Notes: generated by a model from the sequence alone, not told the origin. A DNA stretch of 24,990 bases from a virus (IMGVR_UViG_3300042465_002900:1-24990); one strand, 5' to 3'. Shown: positions 1-24,990, counted from the first letter of the stretch. Program-made: numbers and translations.

Positions 1-378
1 GGGCTTGCAACAGCATTGGCAACCGTTAGTGGCTTGCGCACCTACAACTACCAACCTGAGCAGGTAAGTCCACCTGTTGCGTACCCTGAACTCACAGGCG
101 TTACCTACCACAAAGCATTTCAAGGTGGCGATGTTGTTAGCAACTGGAACATTGGCATTGTTGTTGGCAGATACACCGATAGAACAGCACACAGTCTGTT
201 AGACAGTTACTTGTCGTTCTCTGGTGCGCAAAGTATCAGAGCCGCGATTGAAGCAGACAAGACACTTGGCGGCAGAGTACAAACTTTGATACTAAGTCAA
301 GGCGCAAGAATTACTGCATTGAGTGTCTCGGACGCAGAGTTTTTACAAATAGAATTCACATGTGAAGTTCACGCATAG
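1..378 (+). CDS. Tail terminator protein, 5' end outside window
   Basis: The frame is open from the first base, so the gene starts upstream; the TTG at 16 is probably an internal Leu codon. The readable part is about 125 residues, close to the full size of this family. Segments such as GLRTYNYQPEQVSPPVAYPE, IVVGRYTDRTAHSLLDSYLS and the AAIEADKTLGG stretch match the pattern I know from tail terminators of actinobacteriophages, which cap the tail tube and join it to the head connector. The next gene begins 7 bases after the stop, and the major tail protein follows, which is the usual order. Family assignment is from recalled sequence pattern and synteny, not a search. Confidence 0.75.
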   Translation, partial: GLATALATVSGLRTYNYQPEQVSPPVAYPELTGVTYHKAFQGGDVVSNWNIGIVVGRYTDRTAHSLLDSYLSFSGAQSIRAAIEADKTLGGRVQTLILSQGARITALSVSDAEFLQIEFTCEVHA

Positions 379-385
379 GAGAGTC

Positions 386-550
386 ATGGCAACATACAAA
401 GTTCTTTCAGACAACTGCACACTTGGTAAAGCAGGTGCAACTATTGACAGCGCAAACGACACAAGCGTCAACTATGATGCACTCGTAGAAGGCGGACACT
501 TAGAAGAAGTGAAAGCACAAGCATTCAAATCCGTTAAGGAAGGCAACTAA
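386..550 (+). CDS. Small conserved phage protein between tail terminator and major tail protein
   Basis: 54 residues. I chose the ATG at 386 because AGGAG lies just upstream at 377-381, overlapping the previous stop codon; an in-frame ATG at 362 would overlap the upstream gene more deeply and lacks this site. The protein begins MATYKVLSDNCTLGKAGATI and continues with a region like NYDALVEGGHLEEV, a pattern seen in small proteins next to structural genes of actinobacterial phages. It has no signal peptide or membrane segment. Function is unknown; its place between the terminator and tube genes suggests a virion or assembly role. Confidence 0.7.
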   Translation: MATYKVLSDNCTLGKAGATIDSANDTSVNYDALVEGGHLEEVKAQAFKSVKEGN

Positions 551-552
551 CC

Positions 553-960
553 ATGGCAAAGATTATTCTCACAGACTGCTCAATTACCGTGAACTCGGTG
601 GCGCTGTCAACATTGTCCAACTCAGTCACGCTTACCTTTGAGAAGGACAGCGTAGAGGTAACCGCGTTCGGAGATGCAGGACACAAGTTCACAGGTGGTT
701 TGCAAAACAACACTTGCGACATGCAGTTGTTCCAAGACTTCGCCGCTTCGCAAACCGAAGCAACAATTTATCCACTCGTCGGCACGCCAACCACTGTTGT
801 TATTAAGCCAACAAGTTCGGCAGTAGGTGCAACCAACCCGAGTTACACACTTACAGACACGATGCTCGTAAGCCACACTCCTGTTGCTGGTGCAGTAGGC
901 GAAGTCGCAATGACTTCACTATCGTTTACTGGCGGCACATTGGTTAAGGCAATTGCATAA
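553..960 (+). CDS. Major tail (tube) protein
   Basis: 135 residues, starting 2 bases after the preceding stop, with AAGGA at 537-541 in position as ribosome binding site. An N-terminal beta-rich part has SVEVTAFGDAGHKFTGGLQN, followed by MQLFQDFAASQTEATIYPL and VVIKPTSSAVGATNPSYT. These are typical of the short tail tube proteins of actinobacterial siphoviruses, which polymerise into the tail tube around the tape measure protein. Its length and its position before the frameshifted chaperone genes fit. It is expected to be among the most abundant virion proteins. Confidence 0.8.
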   Translation: MAKIILTDCSITVNSVALSTLSNSVTLTFEKDSVEVTAFGDAGHKFTGGLQNNTCDMQLFQDFAASQTEATIYPLVGTPTTVVIKPTSSAVGATNPSYTLTDTMLVSHTPVAGAVGEVAMTSLSFTGGTLVKAIA

Positions 961-985
961 CTTCAACTAGAAAGTAAACAGCGAC

Positions 986-1297
986 ATGAAAATTGAAATG
1001 ACAGTTACATTTGTTGATGGCACGACTGAAGATGTGGACGCAGTGTTCGCAGACTTCGTTGGCTTTGAACGAACATGGCAACGAAGCGTGGCAAAGTTTG
1101 AACAAGAGTTGCGCCTCACTGACTTGGCATGGCTTGCGTGGAGTGCATTAACGCATCGCAACAAAACGAAACTGAAGTTTGACCCTGACTGGATTGCGAC
1201 TGTTGAAAATGTTGGCATTCGTGAAGCAGGTGAAAGCCCTTTGGACAGCAGTACTACATCCAACAGCGACTTGGTGAAGACTCTGCCCACTGGTTAA
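986..1297 (+). CDS. Tail assembly chaperone, short form (gpG-like)
   Basis: 103 residues, containing FADFVGFERTWQRSVAKFEQ and a LTDLAWLAWSALTHRNKT segment, the usual signature of gpG-like chaperones that coat the tape measure protein during tail assembly. It sits between the major tail protein and the tape measure gene, the conserved position. The last 18 or so codons after the slip site at 1237-1243 are low-complexity (DSSTTSNSDLVK), as expected for the terminated form. The ribosome binding site is weak, which may tie its translation to the upstream gene. Confidence 0.8.
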   Translation: MKIEMTVTFVDGTTEDVDAVFADFVGFERTWQRSVAKFEQELRLTDLAWLAWSALTHRNKTKLKFDPDWIATVENVGIREAGESPLDSSTTSNSDLVKTLPTG

Positions 1298-1425
1298 TTG
1301 CGCACCTTGCACACGAATATCACATTGCACCAAGCCAACTGTTGCAAGAGAGTGATGAAATGTTAAGCGTTATGCACGCTTATCAAAAATGGTTTGTGAA
1401 AGAACACAACCGCCGAAACAAGTAG
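986..1425 (+). CDS. Tail assembly chaperone, long form by -1 frameshift (gpGT-like)
   Basis: Zero-frame reading to codon 1241-1243 followed by a -1 slip gives a protein of about 146 residues. The slippery heptamer C CCT TTG (1237-1243) fits X XXY YYZ exactly: both tRNAs can re-pair as CCC TTT. The -1 frame has stops at 1204, 1222 and 1231 and is then open to the TAG at 1423-1425, reading GQQYYIQQRLGEDSAHWLIA and then HLAHEYHIAPSQLLQ. This Trp-rich segment resembles the T extension of phage tail chaperones. It has no start codon of its own, so it would be missed by simple gene calling. Confidence 0.75.
1237..1243 (+). promoter_or_regulatory. -1 ribosomal slippery site CCCTTTG
   Basis: The zero frame reads CCT TTG and the -1 frame CCC TTT, so the site meets the canonical rule. 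It lies just after the last -1-frame stop (1231-1233) and before the zero-frame stop (1295-1297), the only interval in which a slip could make the long chaperone. I did not find an obvious strong downstream stem-loop by eye. Confidence 0.7.
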
Positions 1426-1440
1426 TTATAGATTGGCGTT

Positions 1441-2028
1441 ATGGGATTAGCCGCGAAAGACTGGAACAAGGTTGGCGGTGTTATGTCATACCAAGTTGTC
1501 GGGCTGAACGATACTTTGCGTGCCTTGAAATTGTTTGAGCCAGAGTTGTATGCCAAGTTGCGCAAAGATTTAGTTACAGACGCAACGCCTCTTGCCAACG
1601 AGATTGGTAGCAAGTTCCCTAACCAACCTTTGAAATGGTGGAAGCAGAACGGTCGTGCAGGTAATGCACGCCTGCCTGGATATAACCCAACACGGGCACG
1701 CACCAAAGTTAAACCGATTGCAGGCACGGGCAGAGAGCGTGGCAAAGGGCGAGTGATTTTGCGCTTGCAACAGATGGACGGTGGCGCACAAGTGTTTGAC
1801 AGTGCAGGTGGACAGCGTGCCAAGGCACAGTTCGTAAAGAACTTGGATAAGCACAGTCGCGTCAAGAGCAAGGGTGGTCGTGCGCGAAGCCGTATCTTGT
1901 TTCCGTACACCAAAAAAAATAAGCACATGGTTGAAGAAATTGTGGGCGTTGTGGTTAAAGAATTAGAGAAGCAAACAACAAAGCGACTAACAGGGCAACT
2001 TGGCGCGATAGGTAGAAAGAACTTCTAA
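1441..2028 (+). CDS. HK97 gp10-like / minor tail protein, putative
   Basis: 195 residues from the ATG at 1441; an alternative start at 1483 gives MSYQVVGLNDTLRALK, which looks like the natural start of gp10-like proteins. Neither has a good ribosome binding site. The sequence is basic, with an N-terminal helix (LRALKLFEPELYAKLRKDLV), a loop-rich middle, then SRILFPYTKKNKHMVEEIV and a C-terminal helix. This resembles the HK97 gp10 family of head-tail joining or tail completion proteins, but the position between the chaperones and tape measure is unusual for that role. The stop overlaps the next start as TAATG, so translation is coupled. Confidence 0.5.
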   Translation: MGLAAKDWNKVGGVMSYQVVGLNDTLRALKLFEPELYAKLRKDLVTDATPLANEIGSKFPNQPLKWWKQNGRAGNARLPGYNPTRARTKVKPIAGTGRERGKGRVILRLQQMDGGAQVFDSAGGQRAKAQFVKNLDKHSRVKSKGGRARSRILFPYTKKNKHMVEEIVGVVVKELEKQTTKRLTGQLGAIGRKNF

Positions 2029-4853
2029 TGGCTGTTGGTGTAAACATTGTCAGTAGTTTCAGCGGTGGTGGAATTAGTAAGGCAATCAAAGAGTTCAAGA
2101 AACTAGATGGCGCTAGTGCAAAGAGTGCGTTCGCACTTGGCACATTGGACAAGAGTGCAACTTCGGCTGTTAAAGGTTTGGCGAAGGCTGGCGCTGGTGT
2201 TGCTGTTGTTGCTGGCGCTATTGGTTACAAGTTGGCAAGTGCCGCCTATGAGTCGCAGAAAGTTATGGCGCAAACAACTGCCATCATTACTGCAACGGGT
2301 GGTGCGGCTGGTGTTACTGCCGAACAGGTAGCAACATTGTCCGAGAAGTTGGCAATGCAAATTGGTGTTGATGACGAACTAATCCAATCATCGGCAAACC
2401 TATTACTTACCTTCAAGTCTGTTAAAAATCAGGCAGGCGAAAACAACGACATCTTTGACCGTGCGGTAACTGTTACACAAGACATGGCAAATGTTTTCGG
2501 TGGTGCAGATGGTGCCGCCAAACAATTAGGCAAAGCACTATCTGACCCCGTTGCTGGATTAACTGCACTAAAGAAATCTGGCATTGACTTTACTGAGCAA
2601 CAGAAAACACAAATTGAAACGCTTGTGAAGTCTGGCAAGTCTCTTGAAGCACAGAAAATAATCTTGGAAGAAATTGAGAACCAAGTTGGTGGCACAGCCG
2701 CCGCAAGTGCAACAGGTTTTGACCGCATGAAAGTTGCTGTTGGCAATGTGGCAGAAACCTTTGGTGCATTGCTTATTCCGTTCATTGAACGCTTTGCCAA
2801 CTTTGTTATTAACAATGTTGTTCCGTACATGGACAAACTCGCTGAGGTGTTAGGCACGCGAGGCATTGGTGGTTTGGTAAGCACACTTGCTGATGACTTC
2901 TTAAACATGACAAGCAACATGGGCAAGACAGGCAATATCATCATGGGCATTGTTACCGCTTTCATTATGTTGAAAGGCGCAATGATGGCGTTTACTATTG
3001 CGCAAGGCATTGCAACGATTGCAACTAAGGCGTTTGGTGTTGCATGGAACTCAACAGGCATTGGCTTGATTGCCGCCGCAATCGCCGCAGTTGTTATTGG
3101 TTTGATTGCGCTGTATGTAAAGTTTGAATCAGTGCGCAAGGTTGTTAATGCGCTTGGCGAGATATTGAAGTTTGTTGTTATGAATGCCATCGCAGGCGTG
3201 TACAACTATTTCGTTACCTTTATCAACGCCGCGATTATTGGATTCAATGCTTTGATTAAAGTTGCCAACTATTTTGGCGCTGACTTAGAGGAACAAGAAA
3301 CACTTGGCTATATGGCGTTCTCTGGTTTGTCTATTGGTGCGGACAATGCCAAAGGCAAGGTGCTAGATGTTGCAGACGCATTGCGCCAAGTCAAGAACGA
3401 AGAACGCAAACTTGAAGGCAAAGGCACAGGCGCTACTACGCCACCAACAAACTTAGGTGGTGGTGCGGCGAAAACAATTAAGACGCTGAAAGAGTTGAAA
3501 GCAGAATACAAAGACGCAGTGCTCGGACTTAATGATGCACAGGTCAAACTTGTTGATTCAACACAAGGTATTGCTGACGCACAACAGAAAGTAATTGACG
3601 CAACTAACAGTGTTGATGACGCATTCAGAGGCATTGGCAAAGCAGAACAAGAAGTAACAAACAAAATCAAAGCGCATGAGAAAGCACAACGAGCAGTCAC
3701 AGAGGCAATGTCAGAAGCCGCTGATGCTGTACTTGAAACACAAAGAGCACAAGACAAGTTGGCAAAGTCAACTGCCCTTGTTACCAAAGCACAACTTGCA
3801 TTTGATGAGGCAGTGCGCGGTTATGGTGCAGACAGCAAGCAAGGACGCAAAGCACAAGACGAACTAGGCGAGGCACAGCGAGACTTGGAGACAAGTGGCT
3901 ACGACTTAGAAGAAGCACAGTTTGCATTGATTGATGCAGAGAAAGAATTAGCCCTTGTTCGTGCCAACAGTGAGAGCACGCAACGGGATATTCGCCAAGC
4001 CGAAATTGATTTGGCAACTGCCAAGTTAGATGTGATTGAGGCGGAACGCGAGCAGAAGATTGCCCAAGACGAAGCAACTGCAAGCGGTGATAACTACAAC
4101 CAGATGTTGAACGGCATTAAGACTGACAGCGAACTTTACAAAGAGTTGCTAGATGCACTTAATGAATCAAAGGTGGCAGAGCAAGAAGCAATTGACGCAG
4201 TTACCGAGGCACGCAAGGCGGAAGCAGAAGCAACCACAGCAATCACTGAGGCACTCAACGAAGAACAAACAGCGTTAATAGAAATTGAAGATGCCAAGTT
4301 GGCAGTCGCCAAAGCAATACGCGACCACGAGAAAGCCTTGTATGACGAAGCCGCCGCAATCAGAGATGTTGCTAAGGCACAACTTGAAGAAGCGAAAGCA
4401 ATAGACGAAGTACGCATTGCACAACAGAAGTTGAACGAGGCAAAGAAAGTTAAGGGTTTGACACCTGCCGCTATTGCCAAAGTTGATACAGCCGTAGCAG
4501 GCGTCCTCGCGGCCGCAAATGCGGTGGTGGCTGGTGTTGGCACATCTGTGGCTACTGGCGCAACAGCGAGCACGGCAGGCATGTCTGCGAGCGCATTTGA
4601 ACACATGATGTATCGCAATGGTTTGGCTGATGGTGGAATTGCTATGCGCCCAACATTGCGCTTAATCGGCGAGTCAGGACCAGAGGCAGTAATTCCTCTC
4701 AGTCGTATGGGCGAAGAAGGTGGAACAACAATAAACATAAGTGTTAATGCAGGCATTGGCGCAGACGGTGGCGCAATTGGCAACGCTGTTGTTGATGCAC
4801 TTGTTAAATACCAACGGCGCAACGGCGCAATTCCAATCGCAGTTAAGGGCTAA
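2028..4853 (+). CDS. Tail tape measure protein
   Basis: 941 residues, the longest gene here. The N-terminal part (about 1-250) has the TP901-like look, with AAYESQKVMAQTTAIITATG and a GVDDELIQSSANLLLTFKSV stretch. Residues about 300-410 hold several hydrophobic segments (such as IGLIAAAIAAVVIGLIALYV) that may insert in the host membrane. Residues about 490-800 are a long Ala/Glu/Lys/Asp-rich coiled coil. Near the C-terminus is GESGPEAVIPLSR, a motif common at the end of tape measure proteins. By the usual 0.15 nm per residue the tail would be about 140 nm long. It is coupled to the upstream gene by TAATG overlap, and the minor tail gene follows. Confidence 0.9.
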   Translation: MAVGVNIVSSFSGGGISKAIKEFKKLDGASAKSAFALGTLDKSATSAVKGLAKAGAGVAVVAGAIGYKLASAAYESQKVMAQTTAIITATGGAAGVTAEQVATLSEKLAMQIGVDDELIQSSANLLLTFKSVKNQAGENNDIFDRAVTVTQDMANVFGGADGAAKQLGKALSDPVAGLTALKKSGIDFTEQQKTQIETLVKSGKSLEAQKIILEEIENQVGGTAAASATGFDRMKVAVGNVAETFGALLIPFIERFANFVINNVVPYMDKLAEVLGTRGIGGLVSTLADDFLNMTSNMGKTGNIIMGIVTAFIMLKGAMMAFTIAQGIATIATKAFGVAWNSTGIGLIAAAIAAVVIGLIALYVKFESVRKVVNALGEILKFVVMNAIAGVYNYFVTFINAAIIGFNALIKVANYFGADLEEQETLGYMAFSGLSIGADNAKGKVLDVADALRQVKNEERKLEGKGTGATTPPTNLGGGAAKTIKTLKELKAEYKDAVLGLNDAQVKLVDSTQGIADAQQKVIDATNSVDDAFRGIGKAEQEVTNKIKAHEKAQRAVTEAMSEAADAVLETQRAQDKLAKSTALVTKAQLAFDEAVRGYGADSKQGRKAQDELGEAQRDLETSGYDLEEAQFALIDAEKELALVRANSESTQRDIRQAEIDLATAKLDVIEAEREQKIAQDEATASGDNYNQMLNGIKTDSELYKELLDALNESKVAEQEAIDAVTEARKAEAEATTAITEALNEEQTALIEIEDAKLAVAKAIRDHEKALYDEAAAIRDVAKAQLEEAKAIDEVRIAQQKLNEAKKVKGLTPAAIAKVDTAVAGVLAAANAVVAGVGTSVATGATASTAGMSASAFEHMMYRNGLADGGIAMRPTLRLIGESGPEAVIPLSRMGEEGGTTINISVNAGIGADGGAIGNAVVDALVKYQRRNGAIPIAVKG

Positions 4854-4855
4854 CT

Positions 4856-6124
4856 ATGGCAGTGACTATGCCGTGGGCAGAAGAAATTGTTGTTGGCATG
4901 AGTCTTGGGTTTCCCGTGCTTGTATTTACTTTGGACAGCGCAACTGATGGCGTGCTTGATACAGCAATTCTTGATGGCGCACTTGTAGCGCAACCTGTAA
5001 CCGAGTTTGCACAGTCGGTAAGCATTGCTCGCGGACGCAGTGCCAACCAAAACGAAACACAGGCAGGCGTGGCAACAATCGTTCTAAACAACAACGACAG
5101 GCGCTTTGACCCGATTAACGAGGACTCACCATATTGGGACGCGGCAACAAACTCAAGTGGTGTAGAGCCAAGACGATTCGTAGAAGTTACAAGCAACGGC
5201 GAACACCTGTTCCAAGGCGCAATCACAGCCATTAACATTACCTATGACAGTGATTTTAGTACTTGCACAATTGAAGCATCGGACGACTTCACACGGCTTG
5301 CCAACATGACTGTTGCAACAGCGTTCACTCCGTCTGTGCAAATAAGTGGCAACAGAGTTTCAACCATCCTTGATTTACCAGAGGTTAATTACCCAATTAA
5401 CCAGCGTGTTATTGCAACAGGTGGTAAAGATTTACAAGCATTGCAAATTGATGCTGGAACAAATGTGCTTGACTACTTGCAACAAGTCGCACTCGCTGAC
5501 CAAGCACTGTTGTTTATGAGCCGTGATGGCGACATTATTTACACTGACCCAGTTGGCACAGTTTGGAACTACGACATTGCGGCAACTTTCACTGACGGTT
5601 CTACAGGTGTTGGCGTAATTCCCTACACATCAATCGCAACAATTACAGACCAAACTTTCTTATATAACCGAATCGTTGTAAGCAAAGAAGGTGGCATTGA
5701 ATATGTTGAAGATGATGCGGCAAGCCAAACTGATTACGGCATTCAAACATATTCGCTAACAGGTTTGCTATTAGAAAACAACAGTGACGCTGACGCATTA
5801 GCAGTTGAACTTCTTGCCAAATATAAAGACCCTGCATATCGCTTTGATGATATGCAATTCATATTCAACGCCTTGTCTGTAAGTAACCAAACAACAATGG
5901 CGTCGCTTGACATTGGCGACAACATTAAAATTGTGCGCACCTTCGCCACTGGCTCGCCATTAACTGTAGAACTGTATTACCAAGTTGAGCGCCTGTCGCA
6001 CGACATAACAACAGGGCAACACACATGCACCATTGGCTTAGGCAGTCTTAAGACGCTGATTTACGAGTTCATCTTGAACGATGCCGAGTACGGAACTTTA
6101 AGTACTTCTAATGCGCTTGCGTGA
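4856..6124 (+). CDS. Minor tail protein (distal tail/baseplate-type)
   Basis: 422 residues, starting 2 bases after the tape measure stop. Residues about 44-85 read SVSIARGRSANQNETQAGVA, then IVLNNNDRRFDPINEDSPYW, the typical opening of the minor tail protein that follows the tape measure gene in actinobacterial phages. RRFVEVTSNGEHLFQGAITA and STCTIEASDDFTRLANM follow, as in these beta-rich tail tip proteins. It probably forms part of the distal tail complex; whether it is the distal tail ring or the hub cannot be decided by eye. Confidence 0.75.
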   Translation: MAVTMPWAEEIVVGMSLGFPVLVFTLDSATDGVLDTAILDGALVAQPVTEFAQSVSIARGRSANQNETQAGVATIVLNNNDRRFDPINEDSPYWDAATNSSGVEPRRFVEVTSNGEHLFQGAITAINITYDSDFSTCTIEASDDFTRLANMTVATAFTPSVQISGNRVSTILDLPEVNYPINQRVIATGGKDLQALQIDAGTNVLDYLQQVALADQALLFMSRDGDIIYTDPVGTVWNYDIAATFTDGSTGVGVIPYTSIATITDQTFLYNRIVVSKEGGIEYVEDDAASQTDYGIQTYSLTGLLLENNSDADALAVELLAKYKDPAYRFDDMQFIFNALSVSNQTTMASLDIGDNIKIVRTFATGSPLTVELYYQVERLSHDITTGQHTCTIGLGSLKTLIYEFILNDAEYGTLSTSNALA

Positions 6125-6140
6125 TGTAGAGTAACTGACT

Positions 6141-6407: not shown

Positions 6408-6416
6408 GGAGTAATC

Positions 6417-6779: not shown

Positions 6780-6785
6780 GCTCTT

Positions 6786-7646
6786 ATGGTGCTTCGTTGG
6801 GACCAACGCAACAAGACAGGTGTGCTGGTAAAAAACTGGTTCAATCCGTCTGTTGATATTGAATATCTTGTTGTCGCTGGTGGTGGTGCAAGTAATGGTC
6901 AGGCTGGTGGCGGTGCTGGTGGTATGCGCTCAGGCACTCTAACAATCTCTGCTGGCACGACTTTCAATGTCGTTGTTGGTGCTGGTGCGCCTACAAGCGG
7001 TGCGAGTGGCAGTGATTCATCGTTCCACACAATTACATCAACGGGTGGTGGATACGGTGCTACTTCTGCAGGTGGTGCTGTAACTGGTGGTGCTGGTGGC
7101 TCTGGTGGAGGCGGCGCACGACTTGGCGCTGGTTCAACTGCGTCAGGTGGTGCTTCATCTCCAGTCACTTCGCCTGCTCAGGGTAATGCAGGTGGTCAAG
7201 CACAATCAGGCACGGCTGGTTATTACATTGGTGGTGGTGGTGGTGGTGCTGGCTCAGTAGGTGGCAATGGTGCAGTAACAACTTCTGGTGTAGGTGGTGC
7301 TGGTGCATCATCGAGCATCACTGGTTCTGCTGTGAACTATGCAGGCGGCGGTGGTGGCACTTGCAACGGTGCAGGTGCTGTTGGTGGTGTTGGTGGTGGT
7401 GGTAATGGAGAGTTCGCACCAACGCCTGCACAGAACGGTACAGCGAACACAGGTGGTGGTGGTGGTGGGTTCTATAGCATTGGTGGTGTTGGCTTTGGCG
7501 GCTCAGGTGTTGTGTATATGCGCTATCCGATTGGCGCAACACAGAGCATCACTGTCTCAGGCGGAGTGCAATCAACAATCTCTGGCTACATCTTGCACAG
7601 TTTCACCTATACAGGAACTGTCACAGTATCGGTGACATCAGTCTAA
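6786..7646 (+). CDS. Glycine-rich tail fibre/adhesin, first copy
   Basis: 286 residues, with 6-base spacing from the upstream stop. After a short N-terminus (MVLRWDQRNKTGVLVKNWFN) comes IEYLVVAGGGA, the entry to the glycine-rich domain seen in many phage and bacterial surface proteins. Residues about 35-240 are mostly runs of Gly with Ala, Ser and Thr, likely stacked polyglycine II helices as known for the receptor-binding adhesin of phage S16. The domain closes with GGSGVVYMRYPIG. A last module (SGYILHSFTYTGTVTVSVTSV, split here as SGYILHSF and TYTGTVTVS) resembles the N-terminal module of the next gene. Probably host recognition. Confidence 0.7.
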   Translation: MVLRWDQRNKTGVLVKNWFNPSVDIEYLVVAGGGASNGQAGGGAGGMRSGTLTISAGTTFNVVVGAGAPTSGASGSDSSFHTITSTGGGYGATSAGGAVTGGAGGSGGGGARLGAGSTASGGASSPVTSPAQGNAGGQAQSGTAGYYIGGGGGGAGSVGGNGAVTTSGVGGAGASSSITGSAVNYAGGGGGTCNGAGAVGGVGGGGNGEFAPTPAQNGTANTGGGGGGFYSIGGVGFGGSGVVYMRYPIGATQSITVSGGVQSTISGYILHSFTYTGTVTVSVTSV

Positions 7647-8482: not shown

Positions 8483-8494
8483 AAAGAAAGAGTT

Positions 8495-8731: not shown

Positions 8732-8732
8732 T

Positions 8733-17492: not shown

Positions 17493-17522
17493 CAACAACA
17501 ACAAGAAACAAGGAGACAAACA

Positions 17523-18458
17523 ATGTGTGGAATAGGCGCTTTCCAAATAATTGGAAACGAATGCGAGCCAGCGAAGGTTGCACGAGTGCTACTTCGTTTG
17601 CTTGAAGTAAGAGGCAAAGACGCAAGTGGCGTTGCGTGGCACGATGGCAACGGTGGCACATTTGTTCGCAAGAGCAACTGTGCAGGCAAGGAACTTGCAA
17701 AGGTGCTGAAGGACAATGTGGGCAACACAGGCATTGTGCATACACGCTGGGCAACTTTGGGCAGTCCAACAGTTGAAGCAAACAACCACCCGATTGATGT
17801 TGGTGGCGTTGTAGGCGTACACAACGGACATTGCACAAACCATGCCGAGTTGATTAGCAAGTGCGAAGGATATGCACGCAATGGACAAGTGGACAGCGAG
17901 GCAATCTTTGCCTTGATTGCGCACGGTCCTGCAAAGCAACGACTTCGCACACGACTTGCACAGGTGCAGGGCAATGCCGCCTTGTTGTGGTTGCGCAGTT
18001 TTGACAAGAACAACCGTTTGCATGCGGCACGACTTACAAGTAGCCCGTTGTGGTTTGGGCAAACGAAGTTGGGCAGTGTTGTGTTTGCAAGCACGCAGGC
18101 AATCTTGCTGGAGACAGGCAAGCGTTGCGGACTTGTGTTTGAGTACACACACGAAATGGCACAGGGAACTTATGTGCGAGTTGAGAACGGAGTACTTAGC
18201 GAGATGCAAACAGTTGACTTGCCTAAGCCGAAGTTCGTATTGCCGAAGCACGACTACACAAAGACAAGTGCTTACGCAAAGCCTGCAACGCAAAGCAAGG
18301 ACATTGAACTTGCAGAGCCGTTGGAATACACGCTGGACTTTGAGGACGAGTTTGATTACGAACTTGAACAATGGGAACACGACTTGTATGGCAACTCGTT
18401 GCGACACTCGCTGGACAAGCAATTCGGCATGGGCGCTTACAACAGGCACAGGTACTAA
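17523..18458 (+). CDS. Class II glutamine amidotransferase
   Basis: 311 residues behind AACAAGGAGACAAACA. The nucleophile Cys2 is in place (MCGIGAF). RGKDASG (30-36), HTRWATLG (73-80), NHP (88-90), HNGHCTN (100-106) and DSEA (124-127) are the glutamine-binding motifs of the Ntn-type domain, complete over residues 1-210. The last 80 residues are an acidic, Tyr-rich tail (LEYTLDFEDEFDYELEQWEH) not known to me in this family. It should release ammonia from glutamine for a partner, most likely the amidoligase encoded 30 bases upstream. A role with QueC in preQ0 amidation is a less likely alternative. Confidence 0.85.
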   Translation: MCGIGAFQIIGNECEPAKVARVLLRLLEVRGKDASGVAWHDGNGGTFVRKSNCAGKELAKVLKDNVGNTGIVHTRWATLGSPTVEANNHPIDVGGVVGVHNGHCTNHAELISKCEGYARNGQVDSEAIFALIAHGPAKQRLRTRLAQVQGNAALLWLRSFDKNNRLHAARLTSSPLWFGQTKLGSVVFASTQAILLETGKRCGLVFEYTHEMAQGTYVRVENGVLSEMQTVDLPKPKFVLPKHDYTKTSAYAKPATQSKDIELAEPLEYTLDFEDEFDYELEQWEHDLYGNSLRHSLDKQFGMGAYNRHRY

Positions 18459-18472
18459 CTAGCAAAGCAATC

Positions 18473-18516
18473 GCCACGCCTTGCACAGGCAACATCGGTT
18501 CGCGACCGAGCGTGGC
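18473..18516 (+). other. Nested hairpin resembling a tRNA acceptor-T-arm minihelix
   Basis: GCCACGC (18473-18479) pairs fully with GCGTGGC (18510-18516). Directly against the right arm stands TCGGT-TCGCG-ACCGA (18495-18509), so the stems could stack as 7 plus 5 pairs; GGTTCGCGACC is like a T loop. A tRNA is excluded because only 15 bases replace the D and anticodon arms. It lies in the 92-base gap before the next gene and has no T tract. Confidence 0.5.
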
Positions 18517-18550
18517 ACGCCATAACAACAAACAAACAGAGGAGACAAAC

Positions 18551-19081
18551 ATGGCAAGTAAACAGCAACAAGGTGCACTGAACATAACGCTTTACGAGGT
18601 ACGCCTCGTGTGCGCTGTTCCCGACTACGGGGTAGGCAGTGCAACAGCCATTGACTACATCTTGGAAGGCGCAATAGACGAAATCAATGTGCTTGAAAGT
18701 GACGAAACAACATTGCGTGTTGTGCGCAACAGTGAAGCGTCCGAGGCAGTGCCTGCAAAGCAAGATGAAACAACATTGGGCGAGGACGAGGACTCGCTTG
18801 AACAAGCAATTGCAGTTAAGCCAAAGAAGGCAAAGGCAAAGGCGGCAAAGGCAAAGAAGCACAAGAAGGCATACAAGCCACGAAGCAACGATGTTGTGAT
18901 GCGCATTGAGAAGGTGTTTGCCTTGTTGCAAACAGTGGAGACAGCAAGCGCAAACGAAATTGCAACATTGGCAGGCGAGCCAGTGAAACACATTTACAAC
19001 GCCTTGTATGCGTTGCACGATGCAAAGAAAATAGGTGCAGACAAGAAGCACGGACTCGTCCGCTGGTTCGCAAACAAATAA
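18551..19081 (+). CDS. Lys/Ala-rich linker plus winged-helix protein
   Basis: 176 residues from the ATG at 18551, behind AGAGGAGACAAAC; the upstream open frame has no reason to be coding. The N-terminal about 60 residues form a small alpha/beta domain (LNITLYEVRLVCAVPDYGVG). An acidic stretch (DETTLGEDEDSLEQ) is followed by a histone H1-like basic region KPKKAKAKAAKAKKHKKAYK at about 97-116, then a winged helix (FALLQTVETASANEIATLAG, KHIYNALYALHDAKKIG). It probably binds DNA, perhaps as a nucleoid-type protein or regulator. Gene neighbours suggest a link to the amidoligase module. Confidence 0.65.
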   Translation: MASKQQQGALNITLYEVRLVCAVPDYGVGSATAIDYILEGAIDEINVLESDETTLRVVRNSEASEAVPAKQDETTLGEDEDSLEQAIAVKPKKAKAKAAKAKKHKKAYKPRSNDVVMRIEKVFALLQTVETASANEIATLAGEPVKHIYNALYALHDAKKIGADKKHGLVRWFANK

Positions 19082-19091
19082 ACCACTAGCC

Positions 19092-19113
19092 GTTGGGGGC
19101 GCAAGCCCCCAAC
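19092..19113 (+). other. Perfect 9-bp hairpin with GNRA tetraloop in the leader
   Basis: GTTGGGGGC (19092-19100), loop GCAA and GCCCCCAAC (19105-19113). The hairpin ends one to two bases before AAAGGAG and 14 bases before the next ATG. A GCAA tetraloop on a GC stem is very stable. It could serve as an mRNA stabiliser, a processing site or a partial terminator, but it has no T tract. Confidence 0.8.
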
Positions 19114-19127
19114 AAAGGAGACAAGAC

Positions 19128-19667
19128 ATGTACCCAAGAGCAGTAAGTGCAATTCCAATTGACTTGAAACACCCGTACCGTTATCAGCGTGTTCGTTTAA
19201 CGCTTGATGGCGCACGCCAAACACGGCTTGCAGATACAGGCGCACCGCAAGGCAGTTGGCACAGTGCCTTTATGAACTGCCTAGCAAGCGTTTCGTTCCA
19301 AGGCGAAATTGAATGGACACACAACATTGACGATGCAACACATTGCATTGCATTGCACAGCCTTACTCATGCCAATGATGCAGTGTTGTTGCTAACAACA
19401 TTTGCGTTAGAACTAAACCATTTGGTTGGTTGGTTTGATGGCTTTGAACAGTGCTACGGCGAAACGGTTGCGCAAACAATCTTGCGCGACTGTTATCTGA
19501 AGGACTGCAACTTCCCTGTTGAGGGTTATGTTGCGCCTTGGAAGCGTGGCTGGTCGTTAGTGCTTGCCAACATAGACACTTCGTTGATTGACGGAGTGCG
19601 CAACCAGTTGCCAACAACAGTTGCTCAATACAACCACCCGTCAATGTTAGAAGGGCAGGCAGTATGA
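19128..19667 (+). CDS. Hypothetical phage protein
   Basis: 179 residues from the ATG at 19128 (ACAAAGGAGACAAGAC upstream decides this start; the frame is open further up but overlaps the previous gene). The sequence contains IPIDLKHPYRYQRVRLTLDG, CLASVSFQGEIEWTHNIDD and LVGWFDGFEQCYGETVAQTI, with several Trp and Cys. It has no signal peptide or strong membrane helix. I do not recognise a family. It lies in the amidoligase operon, translated together with the next gene through a 4-base overlap. Confidence 0.6.
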   Translation: MYPRAVSAIPIDLKHPYRYQRVRLTLDGARQTRLADTGAPQGSWHSAFMNCLASVSFQGEIEWTHNIDDATHCIALHSLTHANDAVLLLTTFALELNHLVGWFDGFEQCYGETVAQTILRDCYLKDCNFPVEGYVAPWKRGWSLVLANIDTSLIDGVRNQLPTTVAQYNHPSMLEGQAV

Positions 19668-19855
19668 GAGTTGTTGATGAGCGCAAGTGGAAGCGTGCCA
19701 AACTTGCAGTGCTACTGGCAAACACAGTTGCATTGCTGTGGTGCATGGGCGGTTTAGAAGGCACAGAGCCAATGCCATACCCAACAGCAACAGTGTTGTT
19801 GTTAGTGACACTCGGTTACTTGACGCACAACTTGACTAAGCACTGGAAGCATTAA
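19664..19855 (+). CDS. Small two-TM membrane protein
   Basis: 63 residues, overlapping the upstream gene by ATGA. A basic N-terminus (MRVVDERKWKRAK) precedes two hydrophobic segments, LAVLLANTVALLWCMGGL and ATVLLLVTLGYLTHNL, with a His/Lys-rich end. It is the last gene before the strong terminator. No family recognised; a membrane partner of the upstream protein or of the amidoligase module is possible. Confidence 0.6.
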   Translation: MRVVDERKWKRAKLAVLLANTVALLWCMGGLEGTEPMPYPTATVLLLVTLGYLTHNLTKHWKH

Positions 19856-19869
19856 CAACAAAACAAATA

Positions 19870-19920
19870 CAACAGCGCCAACCATGTACCCTTCGCATGG
19901 TTGGCGCTGTTGCTGTTTGT
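19870..19920 (+). terminator. Strong hairpin terminator of the amidoligase operon
   Basis: A perfect 17-bp stem: 19870-19886 (begins CAACAGCGCC) pairs with 19896-19912 (ends GGCGCTGTTG); the loop is TACCCTTCG. It is followed by CTGTTTGT, a partial T tract. It stands 15 bases after the last stop codon, where an operon end is expected. Confidence 0.85.
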
Positions 19921-19935
19921 AAGCACATGCAAAAC

Positions 19936-19991: not shown

Positions 19992-20084
19992 CGTCTAAAT
20001 GCACGCTAGAGGCACGCAATCCCCCATATCCGCGCCATTGCTGATATTGTGATTGCAAGTAACAGCGACACTTATGGAGACAGC

Positions 20085-20690
20085 GTGGCACACAACATAA
20101 CGAAAGAACTTGTAAAACTTGCAAAGCCAATTGACAGCGTGCAACCACACCCACGCAATGTTCGCCAAGGCGATGTTGGCGCGATAGCAACCAGCCTTGA
20201 AATAAACGGGCAGTACCGCCCAATCGTTGTGCACAAAACAACGAGCAACATTCTTGCAGGCAACCACACATACAAAGCCGCCGTGAGTTTAGGTTGGACA
20301 GAGATTGCCATTACCTTTGTTGATTGCACAGATGATGAAGCGTTAAAGATTTTGCTTGCAGACAACAAAGCAAACGACTTGGCAAGTTATGACGACAGTG
20401 CACTTGCTGACTTGTTGCAAGACTTGGTTGGTGGTGCAGGACTTGATGGCACGCTTTACGAACTCAGCGACTTAGATGATTTGATTGCATTGCTTGAACC
20501 GCCAAACCTAGATGACTTGATTAGCGACATTGGCGAGCACGACGACAACGATGACTTCACTGGCGTAATTAAAGTGCGTGTTGGTTTAAGCGTGTACGAG
20601 CGTTGGCAAAACACATATGGCGAACTCGCAGGCGATACAGATGACGAACGCATATTGAGTTTGTTAAATGGTTACGACCAAGCGCACTAA
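20085..20690 (+). CDS. ParB/sulfiredoxin-fold protein, possible DpdB-like partner of DpdA
   Basis: 201 residues from the GTG at 20085, chosen because GGAGACA lies at 20076-20082; a GTG at 20049 without a binding site would add 12 residues. HPRNVRQGDVGAIATSLEIN, GQYRPIVV (42-49) and LAGNHTYKAAVSLG (58-70) are the boxes of the ParB N-terminal domain, followed by DNKANDLASYDDSALADLLQ. The C-terminal part is very acidic. ParB-like proteins may cut or bind DNA with nucleotide. In bacterial dpd clusters DpdB is also a ParB-like protein needed with DpdA for preQ0 insertion. Here the gene overlaps the DpdA-like gene by 23 bases. A generic phage ParB-like protein is the alternative. Confidence 0.7.
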   Translation: MAHNITKELVKLAKPIDSVQPHPRNVRQGDVGAIATSLEINGQYRPIVVHKTTSNILAGNHTYKAAVSLGWTEIAITFVDCTDDEALKILLADNKANDLASYDDSALADLLQDLVGGAGLDGTLYELSDLDDLIALLEPPNLDDLISDIGEHDDNDDFTGVIKVRVGLSVYERWQNTYGELAGDTDDERILSLLNGYDQAH

Positions 20691-21600
20691 CGGACTGCAC
20701 CTTTACCTTGCGGCCGCACCATCAACCACAAGGCATGCACTAATGGCATTGAACACACCTGCAGTTGAGCCAGCCAAGTTCTTGTTGTCGTACCACTACT
20801 TCAAGAAAATGGATTTAGACGAACTCGTTGAAGGCATGGGGCAGAAGCCAATGCTGTTTGCTGATAGTGGCGCATTCAGTGCGCTCACACAAGGCGCAGA
20901 TGTAAACATAAACGAATACGCCGCATGGATTAAGCGTTGGCAACATCTACTAACTGTGTATGTAAATCTTGATGTCATTCGTGACGCGAAGGCAACAGCA
21001 AGCAACCAGAAGCGCCTTGAACAACTTGGCTTGCAACCAATACCCGTGTTTCATACAGGCAGTGATTTCAAGCACTTAGACAAACTCGTTAAGACTTACC
21101 CGTACATCGCATTAGGTGGCATGGTTGGTGCAGAGGCGCAGGCGTGCTTCCGTTGGGCGGCAACTTGCATGAAGCGCACCGAAGAATATGGCACATGCTT
21201 TCATGGCTTCGGACAAACACGCAAGCAACTGATTGCCAACTTGCCTTGGTACAGCGTTGATTCATCGTCTTGGGGCAGTGGACATAGGTATGGCGCACTT
21301 GATATTTGGACAGGCAAAGAGTTTGCCAAAATAAAGATTGGCAATAAAGCAAGCGTGTACAAACACGCAAGCACATTACGCAAGTATGGCGTTGACCCCG
21401 TTTGCCTTTCTGACCGTGGGCGTTACCACCAGAAGTATGCAATCCGCATAAGCGCACAAAGTTGGCATGACTACGAACAACACCTGCGCCGCCGACATGG
21501 CGCAATACCTTGCCAAGACAGGGCAGACGGTTTGCACCTGTACTTAGTTGATGGCGCGAAAACAAATCTACAAGACGCAGGCAAAGCGATATTCAAATGA
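20668..21600 (+). CDS. dpdA: DpdA-like DNA guanine transglycosylase (tRNA-guanine transglycosylase fold)
   Basis: 310 residues. Key segments of the phage DpdA-type TIM barrel are ADSGAFSAL (65-73, catalytic Asp66 by analogy), YVNLDVI (98-104), PIPVFH (124-129), ALGGMV (148-153), HGFGQT (179-184) and SVDSSSW (196-202). The enzyme should swap guanine in DNA for preQ0 or a derivative. The QueC, QueD, QueE and FolE genes that supply preQ0 follow, which supports this role. I see no Cys zinc cluster like that in tRNA-type enzymes. The protein has an oddity: NGLHLYLAA at 8-16 and DGLHLYLVD at 288-296 are near repeats at its two ends. Confidence 0.8.
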   Translation: MVTTKRTNGLHLYLAAAPSTTRHALMALNTPAVEPAKFLLSYHYFKKMDLDELVEGMGQKPMLFADSGAFSALTQGADVNINEYAAWIKRWQHLLTVYVNLDVIRDAKATASNQKRLEQLGLQPIPVFHTGSDFKHLDKLVKTYPYIALGGMVGAEAQACFRWAATCMKRTEEYGTCFHGFGQTRKQLIANLPWYSVDSSSWGSGHRYGALDIWTGKEFAKIKIGNKASVYKHASTLRKYGVDPVCLSDRGRYHQKYAIRISAQSWHDYEQHLRRRHGAIPCQDRADGLHLYLVDGAKTNLQDAGKAIFK

Positions 21601-22013
21601 TTGTTGTTATTAACTGTGGCAAACAGAAGGCAACAGAGCCACGACCTGCCTATTCGCTGTACACAGGTTCATTCTTTAGAACATCAATGCAGTGGGCAAG
21701 ATGTTATGCACCGCAGAAAAACATATACATCATCTCTGCAAGGTATGGCATAGTGCGCTCGACAACAGTGCTTCAACCGTATGACCAACGCATTAAGCGT
21801 GATGTGCTTAACCCTGCAATGGTAAAGAAGCAAGCAAAGCAATTAGGCATAGACAAACACAAACCTTTGTTGATTGTCGGCAAGAGATATATGCACTTAA
21901 TTGATGCAGTGTGGCAAGACTACGAAGCACCATTTGCAGGCATTGAAGGCTTCGCAATGCAACAGGCAATGAAACGACATATAAACAAACTCAAACAACA
22001 GGAGAGCAAATGA
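21597..22013 (+). CDS. DUF6884-like protein in the 7-deazaguanine operon
   Basis: 138 residues, overlapping both neighbours by ATGA. VINCGKQKATEPRPAYSLYT, then IYIISARYGIVRSTTVLQPYD and KPLLIVGKRYMHLIDAVW match the pattern of DUF6884, a small family with a 'CGk.K......a..lY.G..f....a......i.ILSA.yGl' signature related to YaaA-type proteins. I know it from phages, often next to DpdA-like genes. Its function is not established. The location between DpdA and QueC suggests a part in modification or DNA contact. Confidence 0.7.
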   Translation: MIVVINCGKQKATEPRPAYSLYTGSFFRTSMQWARCYAPQKNIYIISARYGIVRSTTVLQPYDQRIKRDVLNPAMVKKQAKQLGIDKHKPLLIVGKRYMHLIDAVWQDYEAPFAGIEGFAMQQAMKRHINKLKQQESK

Positions 22014-22705
22014 AAACAGTGGCAATCGTTTCAGGCGGCATGGACAGCGTTGTATTGGCACACATGTTGTCAAGCGAAGGACATGACTTAACACTCGTTT
22101 CGTTTAACTACGGGCAACGCCACAGCAAAGAACTACTGTACGCCGCCCAATGCGCACAAGATTTAGAAGCACGCCACCACATTGTTGATTTGTCCAATGT
22201 GACTGCAATGCTTGACCAATCAGCATTAACCAATCCCAACATTGAAATTCCAGACGGACATTACGCAGAGGACACAATGCGAATCACTGTTGTGCCAAAC
22301 CGCAATGCAATCATGTTGAACATTGCCGCAGGTTTGGCAGTAAGCATTGGTGCAAACAAAGTTGCAACAGGTGTGCACGGTGGCGACCACTACATTTATC
22401 CCGACTGCCGACCAGCGTTTATTAAGGCAACTGATGCCATGTTGTGTGTTGCCACAGATGGCTTTGCAACCAAAGACTTTGGCGTGCTTGCACCATTCCT
22501 TAACTGGACAAAGGGCGATATTGCTCGCGAAGGCAACAGGTTAGGCGTTGACTTCACTAAGACATGGAGTTGCTACAAAGGCGGCGAGATACATTGTGGC
22601 GCTTGTGGAACATGCTTTGAACGCAGAGAAGCATTCGCAGAAGCAGAAGTGTTTGACTTTACTGAATATCTAGCCACACCCGAATACAACGACCCAAGGA
22701 AATAA
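22010..22705 (+). CDS. queC: 7-cyano-7-deazaguanine (preQ0) synthase QueC
   Basis: 231 residues. The PP-loop SGGMDS (8-13) binds ATP. YGQRH (34-38), VPNRN (95-99) and YPDCR (130-134) are conserved QueC motifs. The C-terminal zinc site is complete: Cys188, Cys196, Cys199 and Cys202 (SCYKGGEIHCGACGTCFERR). It turns CDG into preQ0 using ATP and ammonia. It is a free-standing QueC; the class II amidotransferase domain fused to QueC in some phages is absent from this protein. It overlaps the upstream gene and ends 1 base before queD. Confidence 0.95.
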   Translation: MKTVAIVSGGMDSVVLAHMLSSEGHDLTLVSFNYGQRHSKELLYAAQCAQDLEARHHIVDLSNVTAMLDQSALTNPNIEIPDGHYAEDTMRITVVPNRNAIMLNIAAGLAVSIGANKVATGVHGGDHYIYPDCRPAFIKATDAMLCVATDGFATKDFGVLAPFLNWTKGDIAREGNRLGVDFTKTWSCYKGGEIHCGACGTCFERREAFAEAEVFDFTEYLATPEYNDPRK

Positions 22706-22706
22706 C

Positions 22707-23060
22707 ATGTACACAATTACAAAGCAATTCACATTCAGCGCATCGCACCAACTAACTGGCTTGCCTGCCAATCACCAATGCGCCAGGTTGCATGGGCACA
22801 ACTACATTGTTGAGGCAGTGTTGCAAGCAAAGAAGGTTGATGCAGTTGGTTTCGTGCGCGACTACGGCGAACTCAGTTACATTGGCAACTACATTGACGC
22901 AGTGCTTGACCACAAACACTTGAATGATTTGTTTGAGTGCAACCCAACAGCAGAAAACATGGCACGAGTGCTGTACGACAAGTTCGTTGTGCAATACCCT
23001 GAACTCGTTGCCATACGCATTAGCGAAACAACAAAGACATGGGCTGAATACCGCAAGTGA
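22707..23060 (+). CDS. queD: 6-carboxy-5,6,7,8-tetrahydropterin synthase QueD
   Basis: 117 residues, the usual short form. The zinc ligands are His14 (SASHQL), His29 and His31 (RLHGHNY), with the catalytic Cys25 four residues before HGH. DHKHLND (68-74) supplies the His of the catalytic triad, PTAENMA (80-86) is a family hallmark and the terminal Glu107 in SETTKTW binds the pterin. It converts the FolE product to CPH4. AGGA at 22696-22700 serves as binding site. Confidence 0.95.
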   Translation: MYTITKQFTFSASHQLTGLPANHQCARLHGHNYIVEAVLQAKKVDAVGFVRDYGELSYIGNYIDAVLDHKHLNDLFECNPTAENMARVLYDKFVVQYPELVAIRISETTKTWAEYRK

Positions 23061-23062
23061 AA

Positions 23063-23118
23063 CGCCTGCACCTTTACCCCAAAGCACACAATCTCTCGCG
23101 TTACAACGCAACTGTGAG
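23063..23118 (+). repeat. Copy 2 of the 56-base two-part element, upstream of queE
   Basis: CGCCTGCACCTTTACCCCA (23063-23081) plus CTCGC-N8-ACGCAACTGTGAG (23095-23118) repeat copy 1 at 19936-19991 with the same spacing. It fills the only real gap in the operon, just before queE, so it may give queE and the FolE fusion gene a promoter of their own. Base identity outside the boxes is low. Confidence 0.65.
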
Positions 23119-23126
23119 TGCGTGAA

Positions 23127-23894
23127 ATGGCTGACTTTGACGCAATGAGCACGATTATGAACAAACAACCGCAACTCAGTTGGAGTGAATGTTTCGGCCC
23201 AACACTGCAAGGCGAAGGCAAACACATTGGCAAACAGTCGTATTTCATTCGGCTTGGCTTATGCAACCTTGATTGCAAATGGTGTGACACGCCTTACACA
23301 TGGGATTGGACAGGCAAGAACGGGCACAAGTATTCAAAGGCAATTGAGTTAAGGCGTTCAACTGTTAGTGAGTTAGCCGCCAAAGTGCCGGCAACATGCC
23401 AACATGTTGTGCTTACAGGTGGCGAACCAATGTTGCAACAAACAGCGTTGTTTGAATTGTGCACACTGTTGCGCGACAGAGGGCACAGTGTTGAGATAGA
23501 AACAAACGGCACAATCAAACCAAAGTCAAGAGACTGGCTACGCAACGCAGAACAACACAGTGACATTGGCGTTCAATTCAATGTGTCACCGAAGTTAGGT
23601 AACAGTGGCGTTGCATGGGAGATTGCAATTAACGAAGAAGCGTTGATTGAGTACAAACACCTTGGCGCAATCTTTAAGTTTGTTATCACTAATGCTGATG
23701 ACTTGGCACAGGTTGCGTACCTGCAGAACGCATTGCAACTGGCAAGCGATTCAATTTACATAATGCCTGAAGGACGCACACAACAAGAGATACTGGCGAA
23801 GTTGCCTGAACTGTTTGATGTGTGTGCGCAAGAAGGATATGTATTAACACCACGCCTACATGTGTTGGCGTTCAACGATAAGAGGGGCATATGA
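23127..23894 (+). CDS. queE: 7-carboxy-7-deazaguanine synthase QueE
   Basis: 255 residues from ATG 23127; a GTG at 23118 would add 3 residues but overlaps the conserved element. The radical SAM cluster motif is CNLDCKWC (CX3CX2C), in RLGLCNLDCKWCDTPYTWDW. TGGEPMLQ binds SAM, ETNGT and VSPKLG follow, and the end RLHVLAFNDKRGI is typical of QueE. It needs SAM and Mg to convert CPH4 to CDG, contracting the ring. The gene overlaps the FolE fusion gene by ATGA. Confidence 0.95.
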   Translation: MADFDAMSTIMNKQPQLSWSECFGPTLQGEGKHIGKQSYFIRLGLCNLDCKWCDTPYTWDWTGKNGHKYSKAIELRRSTVSELAAKVPATCQHVVLTGGEPMLQQTALFELCTLLRDRGHSVEIETNGTIKPKSRDWLRNAEQHSDIGVQFNVSPKLGNSGVAWEIAINEEALIEYKHLGAIFKFVITNADDLAQVAYLQNALQLASDSIYIMPEGRTQQEILAKLPELFDVCAQEGYVLTPRLHVLAFNDKRGI

Positions 23895-24772
23895 GACACA
23901 TCACATGGCTAGAGGTACAAGCAGAAGCAGAACGCATTGCAAAGACTTGGCGTGGGCGTTGCGACAATGTGTACGGCATACCGCAAGGTGGTGCGCCACT
24001 AGCAGTAATGGTTGCCTACATACTTGGCGTGCCGTTAGCGCAAGAGCCAAAGATAGGCATGAACACACTTGTTGTTGATGACTTAGTTGATTCAGGCAAA
24101 ACATTGAAACGCTATTTCGGCAAGCACCATGTTGATGCCGCCTTTCGCAAGAGCCACTCGCCAACGCACTATGCACCAGACGCAACCTGCATAGATGATT
24201 GGTTGTCGTTTCCGTGGGAGAAGAACGATGGTGCGCCTACAGATGGCGTTGTGCGCTTGCTCGAATACATTGGCGAAAACCCTGAGCGTGATGGTTTGCG
24301 TGATACGCCTGAGCGTGTACTGAAGGCAATGAAAGAGATGACTGTTGGTTACAACACCGACATTGCACAGTTGTTGTCCGTGTCGTTTGATGTGGACTTT
24401 GATGAATTGGTTGTTGTGCGCAATGTGCCTTTCAACAGCCTGTGCGAGCACCACATGTTGCCGTTCACTGGCACTGCAACCGTTGGCTACATACCTAAGA
24501 AGCGCATTGTTGGTTTGTCAAAACTTGCACGCCTTGTTGATGCGTATGCCAAACGCCTACAGGTGCAAGAGCGCATGACTAAACAGATTGCCGATGCAAT
24601 GCTTGAACACATTGACCCGCTTGGCTGTGGTGTTGTTGTGCGTGGCAATCATTCGTGCATGTCGTGCCGTGGCATTAACAAAACAGGTGAAATGGTTACG
24701 AGCAGTCTGCATGGCGTGTTGCGCAATGACGGCATTGCTCGCGCCGAGTTCCTCGCACTTGCAGGCTATTAA
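23891..24772 (+). CDS. folE: Xanthine-guanine phosphoribosyltransferase-like domain fused to GTP cyclohydrolase I (FolE)
   Basis: 293 residues in two domains. Residues 1-110 resemble E. coli Gpt: ITWLEVQAEAERIAKTW, GIPQGGAPLAVMVAYILGV, the PRPP loop VVDDLVDSGKT (61-71) and the end IDDWLSFPWE. Residues about 115-293 are FolE: EYIGENPERDGLRDTPERVL, SLCEHHMLPF (Cys185 and His188 zinc ligands), GLSKLARLVDAYAKRLQVQE and HSCMSCRGI (Cys256 as third ligand). FolE starts preQ0 synthesis by making dihydroneopterin triphosphate from GTP. The transferase may recycle guanine, the by-product of DpdA. Fusion of these two domains is unusual. The E. coli order of motifs is kept, but Gpt's segment between the two motifs is shortened. 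Confidence 0.9.
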   Translation: MRHITWLEVQAEAERIAKTWRGRCDNVYGIPQGGAPLAVMVAYILGVPLAQEPKIGMNTLVVDDLVDSGKTLKRYFGKHHVDAAFRKSHSPTHYAPDATCIDDWLSFPWEKNDGAPTDGVVRLLEYIGENPERDGLRDTPERVLKAMKEMTVGYNTDIAQLLSVSFDVDFDELVVVRNVPFNSLCEHHMLPFTGTATVGYIPKKRIVGLSKLARLVDAYAKRLQVQERMTKQIADAMLEHIDPLGCGVVVRGNHSCMSCRGINKTGEMVTSSLHGVLRNDGIARAEFLALAGY

Positions 24773-24801
24773 CTGCACTATTTGCTAACAAATACGCATG
24801 C

Positions 24802-24831
24802 TTGCCAAGGGCTATAAACAGCCCATATACT
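24802..24831 (+). promoter_or_regulatory. Sigma-70-type promoter, near-copy of that at 16316
   Basis: -35 TTGCCA (24802-24807), an 18-base spacer and -10 TATACT (24826-24831). The spacer carries GGGCT-ATAAAC-AGCCC (24809-24824), the same loop as in the first copy but with a different, still paired, stem. The conserved block ATGCTTGCCA extends to the left. The predicted start is near 24838. Confidence 0.7.
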
Positions 24832-24839
24832 TGTGGCAC

Positions 24840-24860
24840 GCTTCGGGAACAGCCCGTAGC
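24840..24860 (+). other. 5'-terminal mRNA stem-loop of the last operon
   Basis: GCT/AGC outer pairs, a T-T mismatch, then CGGG/CCCG around the loop AACAG. It starts 9 bases after the -10 box, mirroring 16353-16373, and is followed by ACACAAGGAGACAGCA before the ATG at 24880. Confidence 0.45.
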
Positions 24861-24879
24861 ACTACACAAGGAGACAGCA

Positions 24880-24990
24880 ATGACAACGCAAGCAACACAA
24901 ACAACTTGGTCGCAAGACGCAGACTGGTTGGAAACACAAGTCAAGGCGGCACAGTCCATGCTTGGCACAACACTCAGCAAAGAGTTGGAA
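24880..24990 (+). CDS. Start of an unidentified phage gene, 3' end outside window
   Basis: 37 codons are visible from the ATG at 24880, behind ACAAGGAGACAGCA and under the copy 2 promoter. The peptide begins MTTQATQTTWSQDADWLETQ and continues KAAQSMLGTTLSKELE. It is polar and Thr/Gln-rich at first. I do not recognise it. Too little is shown to guess a function. Confidence 0.7.
   Translation, partial: MTTQATQTTWSQDADWLETQVKAAQSMLGTTLSKELE

Follow-up and report, generated by a model that had tools for sequence, protein, structure and literature searches.

Results

Near-elimination of six four-base palindromes

The analysis gives good support to the conclusion that Type II restriction sites have been selectively removed from this phage, and that the avoided set differs among its relatives. 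We observe directly that the sites are depleted, that the depleted words match Type II specificities, that the avoided set switches from one sister phage to another, and that the depletion extends into the phage's own DNA modification genes. The window, i.e., the whole stretch of DNA that was analysed, is the complete IMG/VR virus record IMGVR_UViG_3300042465_002900 (24,990 bases). Exact counts over this length gave a single GATC (11331–11334), no ACGT, no AGCT, six GGCC (4511, 10672, 14487, 15898, 20712, and 23196), two CCGG (9426 and 23388), and three TCGA (7311, 21759, and 24261), the very numbers given by an earlier sequence-only reading of this DNA. GTAC, CATG, TGCA, and GCGC, described there as common, are present in 78, 112, 283, and 171 copies. 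CGCG is lowered (46 copies for approximately 117 expected) and not eliminated.

The 90–100 copies of each palindrome expected in the sequence-only reading are a base-composition figure. Expectations per depleted palindrome become 32–112 when corrected for dinucleotides and 28–89 when corrected for trinucleotides, so the depletion itself stands in this Markov comparison and is still more than 10-fold. It also persists under a null model of synonymous-codon shuffles (33 genes, 200 shuffles), which keeps the proteins and the overall codon usage fixed: each of the six palindromes was observed 0–6 times in the coding part, for 40–76 expected (z-scores from −6.9 to −11.7; minimum over the 200 shuffles 26–60). 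The sole GATC lies outside these 33 genes. All six palindromes fall below 0.1 of an expectation of at least 15, which is how we defined site avoidance. The depletion spans the whole record, with 5 of the six palindromes' sites observed for 174 expected in the tail region, 2 for 74 in the recombination/replication region, 0 for 56 in the amidoligase region, and 5 for 70 in the modification region. Genes identified outside the latter include:

2028–4853, plus strand: tape measure protein (phrog_27166, E = 8.6e-20)
4856–6124, plus strand: tail protein, with its sole annotated relative in Pontimonas phage phiPsal1
10625–11176, plus strand: VanY-type D-Ala-D-Ala carboxypeptidase, an endolysin candidate (PF02557, E = 4.8e-13)
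11478–12410, plus strand: RecE/YqaJ-type exonuclease (phrog_434, E = 6.3e-53)

Two adjoining genes at 6786–8482 match the glycine-rich domain PF21722 and seem to have arisen by tandem duplication of a gene for a tail-associated protein. At 16395–18458, an Amidoligase_2 gene is followed by a GATase_6/7 glutamine amidotransferase gene, a pairing also found in Arthrobacter phage Ottawa (gp65–66).

The avoided words are Type II specificities

We screened the window with the recognition sequences of the Biopython copy of REBASE and found at least 8 more Type II specificities eliminated, beyond the six four-base palindromes. GCWGC occurs once for approximately 84–85 expected, and GCSGC is intact (64 for 65–66). 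Strong losses (observed/expected) also affect CCNGG (6/39), GGNNCC (4/38), GCGCGC (0/18), CGWCG (4/24), CTYRAG (4/18), ATGCAT (0/13), and GTTAAC (0/10), and GGYRCC and GRCGYC are lost too. A greedy conditional scan, in which sites already covered by a chosen site are discounted, found 14 independent palindromic specificities in the window, a count that varies with the site list and the thresholds, and 0 in three Markov simulations of the window.

In an enzyme-independent screen of the approximately 480 five-base words that are free of the six palindromes, the words recovered were for the most part W-type Type II half-sites (GCAGC, CCAGG, and CGACG), together with the asymmetric Type II sites GCTCC and CCCGC. 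Among the relatives described below, it recovered GAATC, a W-type half, in G001 and GGATG, an asymmetric site, in G006. AAAAG/CTTTT, which is not a known Type II site, is absent from the window for 24–39 expected; AAAA/TTTT stands at about half of expectation. The absence of AAAAG/CTTTT, which Type II sites do not account for, may reflect a general shortage of A-runs.

We then used 320 degenerate palindromes of fixed forms, 37 of which are known Type II sites, in 18 contigs. The known sites were eliminated in 121 of 415 contig tests (29%), against 103 of 2,749 (3.7%) for the other palindromes of the same forms, several of which overlap known Type II sites. The odds ratio is 10.6; the nominal p-value of 1e-53 is too small because related contigs and overlapping motifs are not independent tests, even if the effect size is clear. 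In the five-base screen, in this test, and in the switch between sisters described next, the avoided words match Type II specificities and not similar words.

The avoided set switches between relatives

Relatives were gathered with the tail protein (4856–6124), which gave 78 IMG/VR contigs; 11 contigs have proteins related to the tape measure protein and two to DpdA. At tail-protein identities of at least 42%, nearly all contigs have zero or near-zero counts for several palindromes, in sets that differ from one contig to another. Almost no palindromes are depleted in the group at 34% identity (L100–L102). The greedy scan found up to 20 specificities lost in 21 kb in one contig (L075). AGCT is absent or nearly absent from almost all contigs of the wider family (L004–L109 and L028), the exceptions being L100–L102 and a record of 63% GC (L074); Pseudanabaena phage Pam4 lacks it as well (0/73).

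Even close relatives differ strongly, as two sister phages show. G001 reverses the window at GCNGC, with GCSGC at 0/35 and GCWGC at 120/77 (observed/expected), and is also devoid of GAWTC (0/14). G002 has lost CGCG (1/105) and TTAA (0/68), both of which are kept partly or wholly in the window. GATC seemed merely half-avoided in G002, a description that we dropped after the greedy conditional scan showed that RGATCY is chiefly lost there, and not all GATC. At aligned codons, the window shares none of the 73 GCWGC of G001 and none of the 62 of G002; palindromes of G001 that are also present in the window at orthologous codons amount to 23 of 68 for CATG and 28 of 123 for TGCA. Where the window lacks these GCWGC, its amino acids are the same as those of the sister in 19 of 73 cases (G001) and 17 of 62 (G002), and the commonest difference is a single base change.

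Loss of these sites by mutation, in which host or phage would methylate them and methylated C would then turn into T, needs no selection, and the depleted sites are indeed methyltransferase targets that methylation would recognise as specifically as restriction does. We regard this cause as very improbable. The products of deamination are not in excess (pooled ratios to Markov expectation of 0.95–1.12, against 1.01–1.20 for other one-step neighbours), and deamination leaves the loss of GATC unaccounted for, since the usual methylation at this site is on adenine. Searches of the window, G001, G002, G004, and G006 for N6/N4 and C5 methyltransferases found none, which further undercuts decay by methylation. 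We also rejected a phage methyltransferase as an alternative protection: such genes were above cut-off in few of 35 contigs (one N6/N4 and two C5), and dpdA was not detected in the contigs bearing them.

It is even harder to believe in a general avoidance of palindromes or hairpins, caused for instance by cruciform-cutting nucleases and unlinked to restriction. Most of the depleted words are palindromes, as it would have it. However, TGCA, GTAC, CATG, GCGC, TTAA, GTNAC, CTNAG, GCSGC, and RGCGCY are near or slightly below expectation, and these retained palindromes already refute its simple form. Moreover, asymmetric Type II sites are lost too, and the set switches between sisters.

A complete deazaguanine modification operon is itself purged of sites

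The guanine modification system announced by the sequence-only reading is real at the gene level. Profile matches delimit a complete preQ0/DpdA operon at 20049–24772:

20049–20690, plus strand: ParB-like protein, first gene of the operon (phrog_8071, E = 1.8e-38)
20668–21600, plus strand: DpdA-type tRNA-guanine-transglycosylase-like enzyme (phrog_887, E = 3.5e-51; 35–36% identity to actinophage homologues)
21597–22013, plus strand: DUF6884 protein with weak DpdC similarity (PF21818, E = 4.2e-17; PADLOC DpdC, E = 1.4e-4)
22010–22705, plus strand: QueC, preQ0 synthase (PF06508, E = 1.4e-62)
22707–23060, plus strand: QueD (PF01242, E = 7.3e-30)
23118–23894, plus strand: QueE, radical SAM (phrog_2076, E = 4.5e-59)
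23891–24772, plus strand: FolE, GTP cyclohydrolase I (PF01227, E = 2.1e-64)

DpdA is a base-exchange enzyme for DNA guanine. The DUF6884 protein also weakly resembles PADLOC PDC-M57A; its gene is present in G001, G002, and G011 and was not seen in the operons of phages Sonali or Finch. It is a candidate for an enzyme that would convert preQ0 further. The published rule relating gene sets to deazaguanine types (PMC6884629) predicts dPreQ0 for the gene set of the window. Tandem dpdA paralogues are found in G002 (17603–19905, L020/L021; 73% and 55% identity to that of the window) and in G011 (3478–5637), and Arthrobacter phage Sonali has two queuine tRNA-ribosyltransferase genes (gp81 and gp87).

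Homology extends over the full operon between the window, G001, and G002, and over part of it in G006. In these four phages, each operon obeys the avoided set of its own genome. GCWGC and GCSGC are at 0/14 and 12/10 (observed/expected) in the operon of the window and at 25/16 and 0/7 in that of G001, and CGCG is at 0/20 in that of G002. Synteny suggests inheritance of the operon from the common ancestor onward; in that case, the phages lost the sites at a time when they already carried the modification genes. A recent import of the operon is not supported, because the operon follows the avoided set. Residual sites are slightly commoner in the operon of the window, which holds 5 of the 12 that remain, where the expectation would put 70 of 374 sites (p = 0.057).

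The ParB-like and DpdA proteins act on DNA and phages encode nucleases that degrade host DNA, which leaves a very slim chance that a nuclease or modification specificity made by the phage itself forced the loss of the words, e.g., to spare its own DNA; against it, profile searches gave no match to a restriction endonuclease family among the genes of the window, the phages with the same operon (G001, G002, and G006) differ in their avoided sets, and these sets are equally large in related contigs where dpdA was not seen.

Comparison with known phages

The avoidance of restriction sites by phages is a textbook phenomenon. We applied the same greedy procedure to 17 phages, using 25 kb of each (19 kb for phi29). 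The number of lost specificities was 0 in BetterKatz, 1 in DirtyBubble, 2 in phage K, CAjan, and DSL-LC01, 2–3 in phiPsal1, 4 in lambda, 5 in KHP30, 6 in T7, 8 in phi29, Sonali, and the Manatee Spring phage, 10 in Finch, 12 in HTVC010P and Ottawa, 13 in Pam4, and 18 in PenguinLover67 (nearly all of them six- or seven-base sites, in a genome of 70% GC). In total number, the 14 specificities of the window rank high but stay within this range, and PenguinLover67, Pam4, HTVC010P, and Ottawa are comparable. The number of lost four-base sites is extreme: 6 of the 16 four-base palindromes are eliminated in the window and 2–8 in its relatives, except L102, against 0–2 in the 17 comparison phages.

As in the non-temperate dsDNA phages surveyed by Rusinov et al. 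2018 (PMC6286503), orthodox Type II sites are nearly totally lost in the window and the proteins are preserved. Our analysis reproduced known cases of avoidance, namely GATC in T7 (4/90) and phage K (0/50) and GGCC in phi29 (0/20). The window differs from these three phages in having lost six of the sixteen four-base palindromes and 14 specificities in 25 kb. The phenomenon is known, and its extent here is at the extreme end. Pontimonas phage phiPsal1, from a host of the Microbacteriaceae, encodes a homologue of the tail protein (28% identity) and differs in having eliminated no four-base site and only 2–3 specificities.

The window has the DpdA, QueC, QueD, QueE, and FolE genes of Rosebush and CAjan (Hutinet et al. 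2019, PMC6884629), i.e., the type with DpdA and preQ0 genes and without the fused amidotransferase. It differs from this type by the additional DUF6884 gene between dpdA and queC, and from CAjan, with its 2 specificities lost in 25 kb, by its strong avoidance. The order ParB-DpdA-QueC-QueD-QueE-FolE is also that of the actinophages Sonali, Finch, and PenguinLover67. Coliphages with DNA hydroxymethylation show almost no site avoidance (2.4% versus 55.8% of sites; PMC6286503). The window is the opposite case, since it combines modification genes with strong site loss, and this contrast counts against restriction pressure as the cause. Avoidance despite the dpd operon fits published digests in which enzymes still cut deazaguanine-modified DNA: HaeIII cuts the dPreQ0-modified DNA of Rosebush fully (PMC6884629), and TaqI cuts the dG+-modified DNA of 9g to completion and HpaII/MspI partly (PMC5567051).

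A probable actinobacterial host from aquatic habitats

Several similarities make an actinobacterial host likely, and the habitat is probably aquatic. The sole annotated phage with the tail protein of the window infects Pontimonas salivibrio (Microbacteriaceae). A WhiB-type regulator, which has been used as an actinophage marker (PMC10202952), is found in 6 of 11 contigs of the wider family; it was not seen in the window, G001, G002, or G006, which are partial records. The best relative of the VanY protein is in the lake Actinomycetia phage DSL-LC01, and those of the amidoligase are in Arthrobacter phages. A segment of the tape measure protein matches Pseudanabaena phage Pam4, which raised the possibility of a cyanobacterial host; we dropped it given the evidence from Pontimonas, WhiB, VanY, the amidoligase, and the operon order. 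Scans of genome contigs for prophage or MAG relatives found none.

One likely host group, the Nanopelagicales, is devoid of CRISPR (PMC10202952). Actinobacterial drafts of the Lake Biwa methylome, several of the hgcI clade, had no methylated motif or methyltransferase, in drafts that are incomplete (PMC6329791). If the host belongs to the hgcI group, these drafts argue against hosts with many systems. For a host of this streamlined kind, the restriction systems would have to be shared out among the members of its population or belong to other genera. In lake bacteria, few genes are deleted as often as restriction genes (PMC9426551), which fits a restriction repertoire held by a population and not by a single strain.

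Discussion

Type II restriction enzymes in the host population very probably selected against the sites that they cut. In this explanation, each unprotected site would carry a chance of cutting when the phage enters the cell, so variants losing a site would survive better. Endonucleases of the host population would act in this way on every sequence they cut, and some fourteen recognition sequences would eventually lose nearly all their copies. Relatives with other hosts or exposure times would lose other sets. Three parts of this explanation are inferred: the enzymes that restrict the phage, its host, and the base that is modified. The selective removal claimed by the sequence-only reading is borne out, because an unbiased screen recovers Type II specificities, the sets switch between sisters, and the mutational and general-palindrome causes fail.

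Guanine modification by DpdA and the preQ0 pathway would be a second, incomplete layer. Approximately 30% of the guanines are modified in the deazaguanine phages studied so far, and some enzymes still cut their DNA; under such incomplete modification, the removal of sites would stay useful. The two interpretations first offered for the depletion, two layers of the same defence or a record of hosts with many enzymes, can hold together, and the data speak for both because the modification genes themselves are purged of sites.

We find it fairly probable that the avoided set is a fingerprint of the restriction repertoire of an uncultured host population, precise enough to separate GCWGC from GCSGC and RGATCY from GATC, and that a deazaguanine-modified phage stays under strong restriction pressure, with modification and site removal acting jointly. 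The unusual value of this clade lies in the switches between sister phages and in the coexisting modification operon: its members carry the operon and yet have been purged of ten to twenty specificities, and sisters differ in exactly one wobble base. This makes the real protective reach of deazaguanine modification testable, and it suggests that phage contigs alone are enough to predict the restriction repertoires of unculturable hosts.
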